Assembly (NCBI RefSeq): GCF_002159735.1
Contig: NZ_NFJF01000007.1
Coordinates: 1 to 64,000, forward strand
Reading direction: 5' to 3'
DNA: 64,000 nt
Origin: Olsenella sp. An270
GTDB lineage: Bacteria > Actinomycetota > Coriobacteriia > Coriobacteriales > Atopobiaceae
Made by a program: the position numbers and the translations under genes. Positions 11,441 through 60,741 of the stretch are shown one piece after another; within the stretch, counting starts at the first letter, position 1, and each line of letters begins with the position of its first letter. Below the pieces are notes generated by a model. It had not been told where the DNA came from. It did not search any database and worked only from the letters and a program-made list of their open reading frames with translations.

Positions 11441-11512
11441 TTTGGGCGGGCTTGTCCCCGGGGGCGGCGCGACAATGGCGAGAAGAACCGCGCGCTCGCA
11501 GGGGAGGTCGCC

Positions 11513-31728: not shown

Positions 31729-31956
31729 GTGCATAAAACACTCGCTCGTGCAGCATTAGCGCGCCGCGCTGCATAAAAAGCCCGTTCGTGTAGCACGGTT
31801 TTTGGCCAGCAAGCGGATTCAGTTCCGCACGTAGCGACGAACGCCCAGTTGCACATTAACCACCGGGCCCCTGGGGTTAAATAATGCGCTGCACGAGCCG
31901 GCGTTTTATGCGTGGGACCACCTCTAACGCTACACGAAGGCGACTTTTATGCAGCA
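31729..31956. repeat. Four-unit palindromic intergenic array (copy A)
   Basis: Two forward units of about 26 bp start at 31729 and 31769 (GTGCATAAAACACTCGCTCG, CTGCATAAAAAGCCCGTTCG). Two reverse units start at 31888 and 31929 (GCTGCACGAGCCGGCGTTTT, GCTACACGAAGGCGACTTTT). The spacing is 40 and 41 bp. The 373-base spacer between the HAD and NifX-like genes contains nothing else I can recognise. The same layout recurs at 46663 and 60506. Confidence 0.85.
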
Positions 31957-43495: not shown

Positions 43496-43927
43496 ATGGC
43501 AAGCATGATTCCGTACGACCGTTACACGAGGGCTCTCCGCAGCTGGCCGTTTGACGAGTTCGACCGCATCTTCGACGCGCCGTTCGCCGCGCTCTCCACG
43601 GGCAACGCCGGCTTCAAGATGAACGTCGAGGACGCCGGCACCGCCTACGTCGTGACCGCCGAGCTCCCGGGCGTCACGCGCGACCAGATCGACGTCGAGC
43701 TCAACGAGGGTCGCCTGTCCGTCTCCGTCGAGAAGAAGGAGTCCGACGAGGAGAAGGGCAAGAACTACCTCTACAAGGAGTCCGGCGAGTGGAGCGCCAC
43801 GCGCGGCGTCTTCCTCAAGGACGCGGCCACGGCCGGTCTCACCGCCAAGCTCGAGGGCGGCATCCTCACGGTGAACGTCCCCAAGCAGGACGAGAAGGCC
43901 AACGTCACCAAGATTACGATCGACTAA
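43496..43927 (+). CDS. hsp20: Hsp20/alpha-crystallin small heat-shock protein
   Basis: The 143-residue holdase has the alpha-crystallin domain at about 40-135: FKMNVEDAGTAYVVTAELPG, then the conserved LEGGILTVNVPK near the end and a short tail without an obvious I-x-I. I chose ATG 43496 (MASMIPYDRY), with GAAGGAG eight bases upstream. Expression is probably repressed by HspR at the operator 43345-43369. A strong terminator follows. Confidence 0.95.
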   Translation: MASMIPYDRYTRALRSWPFDEFDRIFDAPFAALSTGNAGFKMNVEDAGTAYVVTAELPGVTRDQIDVELNEGRLSVSVEKKESDEEKGKNYLYKESGEWSATRGVFLKDAATAGLTAKLEGGILTVNVPKQDEKANVTKITID

Positions 43928-43950
43928 CGTCGGGAAACGCAGCGATTCGG

Positions 43951-43985
43951 CGGGTCGGGACCCACGGGTTCCGGCCCGTTTTTTG
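43951..43985 (+). terminator. Rho-independent terminator of hsp20
   Basis: CGGGTCGGGACC, loop, GGTTCCGGCCCG followed by TTTTTT. The 12 bp stem has two G-U pairs. Confidence 0.9.
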
Positions 43986-43994
43986 CTTTGGCCC

Positions 43995-44210
43995 AGGAAT
44001 TGCAGCCCTTGTCCGGGCCTCGTCTAGAAATCGCCGTCCTTGTCCGCCGCCACTCTAAGAATCGCCGCCGTTGTACGGGCGTTATCCCCTCTCGCGGTAC
44101 AAGGCCCCAAGTTTCTAGAGCCCCTCAGGACAAGAGCGCCTTTTACTAGATTAGCTAGCGACAAGAACCGCGTTTTCTAGAACGGCCAATGACAAGGGCG
44201 GCGATTTCTC
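43995..44210. repeat. Seven-unit palindromic intergenic array
   Basis: Degenerate ~22 bp units with consensus CTAGAAATCGCCGTCCTTGTCC occur three times forward (about 43996, 44024, 44054) and four times reversed (about 44097, 44127, 44159, 44188), with a period near 30 bp. The 316-base spacer between hsp20 and the MBL gene holds only the terminator and this array. Different sequence from copies A-C, but the same forward-then-reverse design. Confidence 0.8.
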
Positions 44211-44243
44211 TCACGAACGCCCGCCCTTCTCGTCCGTCCCCTG

Positions 44244-45056
44244 CTAGAAGACGGAGAGCGGCCAGTCCTGCGCGGCGCAGCAGATCGTGAGGCGGCCGTC
44301 GGGCGTGCGGGCCTCCGGGCGACCGTCCTCCCCGGGGGCGACCTCGGCCCTGACCGCCGCCGCCAGCTCCCGCGCGCAGAGGCTCGGGCGGTTGTTCTCC
44401 TGCGAGAGGTGCATGGCGACCACGGTCTCGGTGTCCGGCCCCACCAGGCGTCCGAGCGCGGCCGCCGCCTGGGCGTTGGAGAGGTGGCCGCACGGCCCGC
44501 CCACACGGGCCTTGAGGTAGGCGGGATAGGTGCCCGTCGCGAGCATGCGCTCGTCGTGGTTGGACTCGAGCGCCAGGATGCGCGTTCCCGCCAGGGCCTC
44601 GAGCGCCTCGTCGCCCAGCTCGCCGGTGTCGGTGCAGAAGCCGAGCGCGTCGTCGTCCGTGGAGAAGCGCAGGCCGATGGGATCGGCCACGTCGTGCGAG
44701 GTGGGGAAGGTCCGCACGCGCATGCCGGCGACCTCCAGCTCGTCGGAGTGGCCAACGAGCGTGAACGGCAGCTCGGCGAGGTAGCGGCGCGCGGCAATGG
44801 TGCCGGCGGTCGCGAGGAGCAGCCCGTCGAAGCGGTTGCAGAACACGGTGAGCCCGCCCACGTGGTCGGAGTGCTCGTGGGTGAGGATCACGGCGACCAC
44901 GCGACCCATGTCCACGCCCAGCTCGTCCGCCCGGCCGAGGAGCGCCCGCCGCGAGATGCCGCAGTCGACGAGCACCGAGCCCCCGGGGCCCTCGACCACG
45001 GCGGCGTTGCCCTTGGAGCCGCTGGCCAGCACGTGCAGGTGGATTTCGGGGGTCAT
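44244..45056 (-). CDS. MBL-fold metallohydrolase (WalJ/YycJ-like)
   Basis: The 270-residue metallo-beta-lactamase-fold hydrolase begins LHVLASGSKGNAAVVEG. The metal motif VILTHEHSDHVGGL (HxHxDH) and later TSHDVADPIGLRF, LESNHDERML and HLSQENN match the WalJ/YycJ group of small nucleases or hydrolases. I chose ATG 45056, with GAGAGGACCCCC upstream; a longer frame would overlap the divergent tilS promoter. The substrate is unknown. Confidence 0.9.
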   Translation of the reverse strand: MTPEIHLHVLASGSKGNAAVVEGPGGSVLVDCGISRRALLGRADELGVDMGRVVAVILTHEHSDHVGGLTVFCNRFDGLLLATAGTIAARRYLAELPFTLVGHSDELEVAGMRVRTFPTSHDVADPIGLRFSTDDDALGFCTDTGELGDEALEALAGTRILALESNHDERMLATGTYPAYLKARVGGPCGHLSNAQAAAALGRLVGPDTETVVAMHLSQENNRPSLCARELAAAVRAEVAPGEDGRPEARTPDGRLTICCAAQDWPLSVF

Positions 45057-46662: not shown

Positions 46663-46898
46663 GTGCATAAAACCCGCGCTCGTGCTACATTCGCGCGCTT
46701 TTCAAAACAAAACGTCGACTCGTGTAGCGTGATTTCGCCGCAAAATCGAAAATTGATTCTAAATCTGATTCTGAATCCAGCGACTTTGCAAGCGCGCCCG
46801 CTTCAAAGTCGTCTCAGGGGCAAAAAAGACGTTACACGAATCGCGGTTTTATGCACGGGAAGGTGCCTAGTGCTGCACGAGTGGACGTTTTATGCAGC
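46663..46898. repeat. Four-unit palindromic intergenic array (copy B)
   Basis: Forward units start at 46663 and 46703 (GTGCATAAAACCCGCGCTCG, CAAAACAAAACGTCGACTCG). Reverse units start at 46831 and 46872 (GTTACACGAATCGCGGTTTT, GCTGCACGAGTGGACGTTTT). Spacings are again 40 and 41 bp. A CGACTTTG/CAAAGTCG hairpin lies between. The remainder of the 381-base tilS-hpt gap (46899-47024) contains only the hpt leader; no ORF. Confidence 0.85.
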
Positions 46899-60505: not shown

Positions 60506-60741
60506 GTGCATAAAAGCGTCCTTCGTGCTACGTTACGCGCGTTTTGAAATCAAAAACGCCGTTCGTGTAGCGTAAATCTCGTCGATTTTCGAGATGAGAT
60601 TCAAACAGTTATGTCGTTTCCTGCGGTTTTGCCTGCGGGTGCGTCGGCAGGGACCGCCTCGGGGCCACCTGAGCGCTGCACGAACGACGGTTTTGTGTTC
60701 CGGAAGCGGTCTGATGCAGCACGAGTGGAGGTTTTGCCCAA
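60506..60741. repeat. Four-unit palindromic intergenic array (copy C)
   Basis: Forward units start at 60506 and 60546 (GTGCATAAAAGCGTCCTTCG, then GAAATCAAAAACGCCGTTCG). Reverse units start at 60675 and 60716 (GCTGCACGAACGACGGTTTT, GCAGCACGAGTGGAGGTTTT). Spacings of 40 and 41 bp match copies A and B. The 325-base gap between prfA and prmC contains nothing else except the prmC ribosome site. Confidence 0.85.

Follow-up and report, generated by a model that had tools for sequence, protein, structure and literature searches.

The window analysed here is a stretch of 64,000 nucleotides from Olsenella sp. An270 (contig NZ_NFJF01000007.1, positions 1 to 64,000). In one of its convergent gaps, between an hsp20 gene and a gene for a hydrolase of the metallo-beta-lactamase fold, which we take to be walJ/yycJ-like, lies an array of three forward and four reversed 23-bp repeats (43992-44212), read directly from the letters. 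The first-pass annotation had given the same composition, placed the array after the hsp20 terminator and set its limits at 43995-44210. All three statements hold, the limits within a few bases and the terminator as a terminator-like hairpin at 43949-43980. The features of the locus are:

43505..43927, plus strand: hsp20 gene, upstream neighbour (Pfam PF00011, E 5.8e-13)
43949..43980, plus strand: intrinsic-terminator-like hairpin 3' of hsp20 (search for terminator-like sites)
43992..44014, plus strand: forward repeat 1, outermost, CCCAGGAAT..TTGTCC; motif 1 departs from TCTAGRAAT; TTGTC at 44009
44023..44045, plus strand: forward repeat 2, TCTAGAAATCGCCGTCCTTGTCC, near-consensus
44054..44076, plus strand: forward repeat 3, innermost; TTGTAC variant
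44077..44096, no strand: centre, 20 bp; mirror axis at 44086.5
44097..44119, minus strand: reverse repeat 1, innermost, GTACAA..TCTAGA
44128..44150, minus strand: reverse repeat 2 (from the sequence)
44159..44181, minus strand: reverse repeat 3 (from the sequence)
44190..44212, minus strand: reverse repeat 4, outermost; motif 1 degenerate
44244..45056, minus strand: metallo-beta-lactamase-fold hydrolase, convergent neighbour (Pfam PF00753, E 9.6e-18)

The repeat has the consensus TCTAGRAATCGCCGCCCTTGTCC, derived from 152 units of the window's own genome, and is followed by eight variable base pairs. Its TTGTC sites start at 44009, 44040 and 44071 on the plus strand and have their first base at 44102, 44133, 44164 and 44195 on the minus strand. 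All seven are placed on one exact 31-bp grid, which continues unbroken through the mirror axis at 44086.5. The spacing is regular, as had been noticed, and the period, first given as about 30 bp, is exactly 31. The sites of the two innermost repeats, forward 3 and reverse 1, read TTGTAC, and motif 1 is degenerate in the outermost repeats on both sides.

The 22-mer, allowed up to three mismatches, matches once in the window and never in 100 shuffles. The raw window count of a loose spaced pattern (up to three mismatches) is not above chance, with 14 matches against 20.7 expected; what exceeds chance instead is the clustering of the units and their count in the whole genome. In that genome (G000; 2.01 Mb, 14 contigs, 98.6% complete) the pattern of this family, called A (TTGTCC-N8-TCTAGA, up to two mismatches), has 214 matches, 107 forward and 107 reverse, compared with 25 (14 and 11) for the reversed pattern used as control. 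A genome search had been proposed for the unit, and it turned out to be anything but confined to the window site. The 100 matches listed of these 214 group into 46 clusters. Among them, 35 of 36 same-strand pairs closer than 320 bp are spaced by 31, 62 or 93 bp (the other by 72 bp), and all 50 opposite-strand pairs within the same distance run forward-then-reverse. With the help of the grid and on fetched stretches, 46 arrays were resolved in G000 and, in related genomes, 31 in G003, at least 21 in G024, at least 15 in G030 (both lower bounds drawn from part of the matches) and two in G008. Most arrays hold more than two units.

Arrays of family A are intergenic: none of 115 overlaps a gene predicted by a simple codon-score caller by more than 80 bp. 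The 46 arrays of G000 are located in 12 convergent, 25 tandem and 3 divergent gaps and at 6 contig edges, while the 50 gene junctions of the window itself comprise 8 convergent, 33 tandem and 9 divergent ones. Eighty-two flanking genes yielded 133 Pfam families. Among the 25 of these shown, ABC transporters come first with seven members and the rest are mostly single enzymes, plus two MarR-type regulators; no binding protein was found there. The idea that two arrays enclose a gene as a cassette was dropped, as the neighbours look ordinary.

Two further observations concern the surroundings of the arrays. Five contig ends of G000 (C1, both ends of C7, C9 and C10; loci L031, L032, L041, L049 and L054) lie just past A arrays, which are cut at the TCTAGA motif or beside it. 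A sequence of 108 bp is common to two of these ends and one of 106-109 bp to three; the two sequences have the look of termini, one from either end of a multi-copy insertion element that contains GATATGAG and seems to use A arrays as its target. The word GCGAGAAGRNC occurs 314-1,345 times per genome in all 31 genomes of the genus compared, against 77-182 for its reversed control, and GGCGAGAAGRNC, with up to one mismatch, matches the window 81 times where 6.1 matches would be expected. Examples in the window are at 11477, 20361, 28154, 36596 and 38219. Several copies fall in gaps and array centres, and in-frame codons (GEKD) probably raise the count.

Among the 31 genomes, family A is abundant only in G000, G003, G024 and G030. 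In a scan of 84,980, from which the window's own species may have been omitted, the two-motif pattern appeared in only three species. No array matches were found in phages, plasmids or viral contigs. G027, which by one flanking gene (93%) is the nearest relative, has only background counts for A and for the families C and D introduced below, which makes the distribution patchy; sampling comprised one genome per species, mostly unclosed. In G008, otherwise devoid of family A, two arrays are situated 6.7 kb apart (C3:335406-342475, L061). One flank there is 98% identical to G000 and the hydrolase protein 81%, which suggests recent DNA exchange. G008 and G028 have few arrays, and the open reading frames lying between these code for parts of PTS and ABC transporters, for enzymes and for two regulators, one GntR-like and one MarR-like; judged by eye, none of them stands out as a candidate cognate gene.

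Three elements of another family, B, are present in the window. They are the four-unit arrays which the first-pass annotation had noted at 31.7, 46.7 and 60.5 kb, and each of them does consist of two forward and two reverse units:

31730..31953, no strand: family B element, two forward and two reverse units (from the sequence)
46664..46896, no strand: family B element (from the sequence)
60507..60740, no strand: family B element; three of its four units with 3-5 mismatches

The unit of family B is TGCATAAAA-N7-TCGTG, with a step of 40-41 bp and some units carrying 3-5 mismatches. A variant, TGCGCAAAA-N7-TCGTG, occurs mainly in G022, G025 and G010, often with about 203 bp between its outer units. 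Families C (three species) and D (two species) display the same mirror architecture as A, with other words and on 41-bp grids. In the 31 genomes, C counts 97 in G019, 118 in G023, 55 in G026, 5 in G022 and at most one elsewhere, and D counts 56 in G004, 47 in G015, 7 in G028, 6 in G030 and at most two elsewhere. A, C and D hardly co-occur in any one genome. Common to the three are the direction relative to the axis, the 17-bp consensus offset between the two motifs and the helix-locked spacing, and on these grounds the earlier impression of distinct families sharing one architecture is confirmed for them. A and D moreover have the core word GGAATCGCCG in common. At four A-array loci (one in G000, one in G003 and two in G030) the outermost units are hybrids, combining a D-like motif 1 (TCCCGGAAT or TCCGGGAAT) with the exact A motif 2, TTGTC. 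The likeness of C is looser: its consensus, from 26 exact listed units, is GCTTAGGGAttGcCgCggTTGGAGGG, and RATCGCCG occurs in 4 of the 26.

Different families also occupy the same loci in part. For 8 of 23 D clusters (20 fetched stretches of G004) an A genome has an A array with the same flank on either side, a minority of the clusters and yet more than scattered insertion would lead one to expect, the 2-3 expected being our own estimate and not a computed control. At the hydrolase site beside hsp20, compared by eye in the 29 relatives with a match (in a few of them the next gene is not hsp20), G019, G023 and G026 carry a 41-bp C array, G013 a 19-bp mirror array, and many others short inverted repeats or little. 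On the 3' side of an M16 peptidase gene there are A arrays in G000, G003, G024 and G030, a 41-bp D array in G004 and G015, and a 19-bp array in G019, G023 and G026. The mirror arrays on a 19-bp grid (GGTTACGTACAC or GGTTATGTACA) were seen at L073 (G013) and L227-L229 (G023, G026 and G019).

In 94 of 111 two-armed A arrays the facing TTGTC sites on either side of the axis stand an exact multiple of 31 bp apart; of the remainder, five are off by 1, nine by 9-12 bp, about one turn, and three are interleaved. In family D the centres measure 25, 35, 46, 56, 66, 76, 77, 87, 107, 118, 128 and 169 bp. These 12 distinct distances, a set in which weak same-strand matches had been added by grid steps, fit a period of 10.35 bp with R 0.97, a value reached by none of 20,000 random sets. 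Raw matches, to which no grid filter was applied, gave similar periods when scanned from 6 to 20 bp: 10.25 bp for D in G004 (R 0.997, 30 opposite-strand pairs), 10.3 bp for D in G015 (R 0.955, 22 pairs) and 10.25 bp for C in G019 (R 0.938, 101 pairs). Every opposite-strand pair of D in both genomes is forward-then-reverse, as are 91 of the 101 C pairs; the ten reverse-then-forward ones probably span neighbouring arrays. The cross-axis period of 10.25-10.3 bp found in A, C and D corresponds to one turn of B-DNA, and spacing of sites in whole helix turns holds for these three families on their 31- and 41-bp grids. The fit is weaker for B (best period 8.15 bp with R 0.863; R 0.779 at 10.3 bp), whose elements are of near-fixed length, their centres measuring about 122, 131-132 or 141 bp. 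The 19-bp-step type of mirror array is a counterexample, its step not amounting to whole turns of the helix.

Because the helix phase is the telling sign, duplex DNA is favoured over RNA. An element acting at the RNA level, as a bidirectional 3'-end hairpin or terminator for transcripts from either side, would make use of the pairing between forward and reverse repeats, and the window array has a strong RNA fold (z -4.74), something to be expected of every inverted repeat. Raw counts also show convergent gaps to be somewhat commoner around arrays (12 of 40 outside contig edges) than among the window's junctions (8 of 50). Compensating changes between opposing arms are nevertheless missing: in 28 arrays compared with shuffled ones, neither the spacers (p 0.66, 0.26 and 0.10 for three units) nor the GC block (p 0.90 and 0.39) co-vary, and only in the apical part do two positions agree above expectation, with p 0.08 overall. 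The lock at the B-DNA repeat would be meaningless for a hairpin loop; 25 of the 40 arrays occupy tandem and 3 divergent gaps; hsp20 already ends in a normal terminator-like hairpin, to which both terminator-like sites belong and not to the array; and an Rfam search with the array returned no match up to E = 1. An all-against-all comparison of the units did not favour a hairpin either. We regard an RNA-level role as very improbable.

Arrays were further compared between species. For 41 pairs of arrays both flanks are shared between G000 and a relative, and these pairs cover 30 of the 46 G000 arrays. Identity within them reaches 92% for TTGTC (1023/1107), 80% for TCTAG and 78% for RAAT, but 66% for the GC block and 59% for the spacer (1120/1903), with 84% in the flanks. 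This conservation of sites over spacers favours selection on the sites, a contrast which is partly ascertained since the arrays were found by the same motifs. Within G000, adjacent units are slightly more alike (0.40) than units of different arrays (0.335), and arrays therefore probably grow in part by duplication of 31-bp units. Such local duplication of whole units is the only hint as to growth, and the common generating mechanism suggested at first pass did not emerge. The possibility that arrays act as recombination breakpoints was prompted by flanks of 99% and 82% identity at one locus and was rejected: across the 41 pairs identity jumps on average by 5.3 points over arrays and by 4.4 points within one side (72 comparisons; p 0.29).

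The main rival to a host function is a selfish element with multi-site ends, that is a nonautonomous mobile repeat (MITE- or REPIN-like) with several transposase sites at each end, from which the host gains nothing and whose phasing would reflect a transposase complex on the DNA ends. Multi-site mirror ends are typical of elements of the MuA/TnsB/IstA type. Family B does resemble such an element, being a nearly fixed 2+2 structure with outer units TGCATAAAA..TTTTATGCA in most copies; the families are lineage-restricted, and the two A arrays of G008 stand in a genome otherwise without them. Recent copies should betray mobility, yet no near-identical arrays at unrelated loci occur among the top-ranked pairs listed, where a 230-bp or so copy with 95% identity would fall, and the most alike non-orthologous pairs of one genome listed there (L025/L026, L045/L046 and two arrays of L133) are neighbours. 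Against mobility speak also the 30 of 46 G000 arrays with an orthologous array in a relative, and the 25 of 133 flanking-gene families shown, which include no mobile-element family. Orthologous gaps without an array exist, and their flanks are too diverged for target-site duplications to be read. The Mu-type C-terminal domain PF09299 had no match in the 31 genomes, which is weak evidence because the control was silent too. All in all, we consider a purely mobile origin unlikely.

A particular form of mobility, and one for which the first-pass annotation had suggested looking, is generation of the arrays as a REP/BIME family by a RAYT (Y1) transposase. Y1 genes are plentiful in the genus (Y1_Tnp matches in 28 of 31 genomes), and the arrays are intergenic, species-specific and present in both orientations. 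The association itself failed to appear. G000, although richest in A matches, has no Y1_Tnp match in its assembly, which is 98.6% complete and could in principle miss such a gene in a gap, and the A unit (up to one mismatch) is absent from all 20 fetched loci around Y1 genes of relatives. The RAYT-type genes listed, among them one in G003, two in G024 and one in G030, adjoin other repeats, which are palindromic. The A unit is non-palindromic and its orientations come in blocks instead of alternating. Generation by a RAYT is hardly credible on these counts. The borders of the listed RAYT-type genes of the relatives (L162-L180) carry short palindromes, for example TGCCTAAAAGGGGTCTGACCCCTTTTAGGCA; these are apparently classical REP systems, of which the genus holds several kinds.

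We propose that the array is probably a cis-acting platform for a sequence-specific candidate protein on double-stranded DNA. Each 23-bp repeat would present one two-part site, made of motif 1 (TCTAGRAAT), about 8 bp of GC-rich sequence and motif 2 (TTGTC). Sites recurring every 31 bp would be three helix turns apart, and all copies would therefore come to lie on one face of the DNA. The forward and reverse arms would point at each other over a centre changing in length almost only by whole helix turns; as the arms face each other, bound molecules could meet across it. Dozens of such platforms would be distributed over the non-coding gaps of the chromosome. A one-face protein lined up from both sides of the axis is the simplest explanation, and from the observed geometry, genome-wide spread, helix-phase lock, conservation pattern and lineage-specific words of the arrays we infer that protein binds at their sites. 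Of the two explanations offered at first pass for families sharing one architecture, a family of binding proteins appears the best, judging by the shared direction, 17-bp offset and helix lock and by the core word and hybrids of A and D. Related proteins would act on A and D and, with less certainty, on C and B as well. The platforms presumably serve the host by organising or insulating its chromosome rather than being purely selfish. BIME-2 of E. coli binds DNA gyrase (PMC2817692), and because of this analogy our first guess is that the arrays may play a role in local DNA topology or in insulation between genes. Tandem-repeat DNA-binding proteins described in another paper (PMC11417379) are a possible lead, with no link to the arrays made.

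More tentatively, the families may be one clade-specific system, in which a single fast-evolving candidate DNA-binding protein assembles face-locked complexes of mirror symmetry on some tens of platforms in each genome, while its specificity shifts between sister species together with its whole set of sites. The words of A and D, perhaps also of C, would then be successive solutions at partly the same loci and the A/D hybrids intermediates; this is possible, if still somewhat doubtful, and the shared-core comparison that bears on it is strong for A and D and loose for C. Should it be right, the sister species of this small genus would form a natural series of protein-site co-evolution, which could be followed from sequence alone thanks to the physical signature of the 10.3-bp phase. 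Olsenella-group actinobacteria would possess a chromosome-scale array system that is neither REP nor CRISPR nor origin, and it would allow a test of the idea that dispersed repeats in bacteria can be platforms which the host maintains, as opposed to selfish DNA.

Searches of the open-access literature listed no account of arrays of this kind for Olsenella, Atopobium or Collinsella. Several known systems invite comparison. CRISPR arrays have one-directional repeats, unique spacers of 25-40 bp and adjoining cas genes; the mirror orientation, the 8-bp spacers and the hsp20 and hydrolase neighbours rule out such an array here. In plasmid iterons, repeats a few helix turns long stand in tandem and are bound along a single face of the DNA. 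Iterons run in one direction and sit at replication origins, in contrast to the present mirror arrays, dozens of which are scattered along the chromosome. The ends of Mu, Tn7 and IS21-type transposons contain two-part sites of about 22 bp, direct within an end and inverted between ends. Our arrays share the two-part sites, direct within each arm and inverted between arms, and family B mostly starts with TG and ends with CA as such elements do; unlike them, the arrays have a 20-bp centre with no transposase or cargo between the arms, vary in unit number and keep orthologous positions between species.

Closer in genomic habit are the REP-derived repeats. REPINs, doublets of REPs forming hairpins, likewise present a mirror pair around a less conserved spacer (PMC3116915), and their populations are said to persist for millions of years (PMC8049555). 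The arrays differ from them in mostly having more than two units, in lacking a pairing constraint between arms and in that no RAYT cognate was found. Like the REPs in BIMEs (PMC2817692), family A is intergenic, species-specific, multi-copy, regularly spaced and present in both orientations. It departs from REPs and BIMEs in a host genome without Y1 match, in a non-palindromic unit (consensus as above, n=152), in orientations arranged in blocks and not alternating, and in the helix-phase lock carried through the mirror axis.
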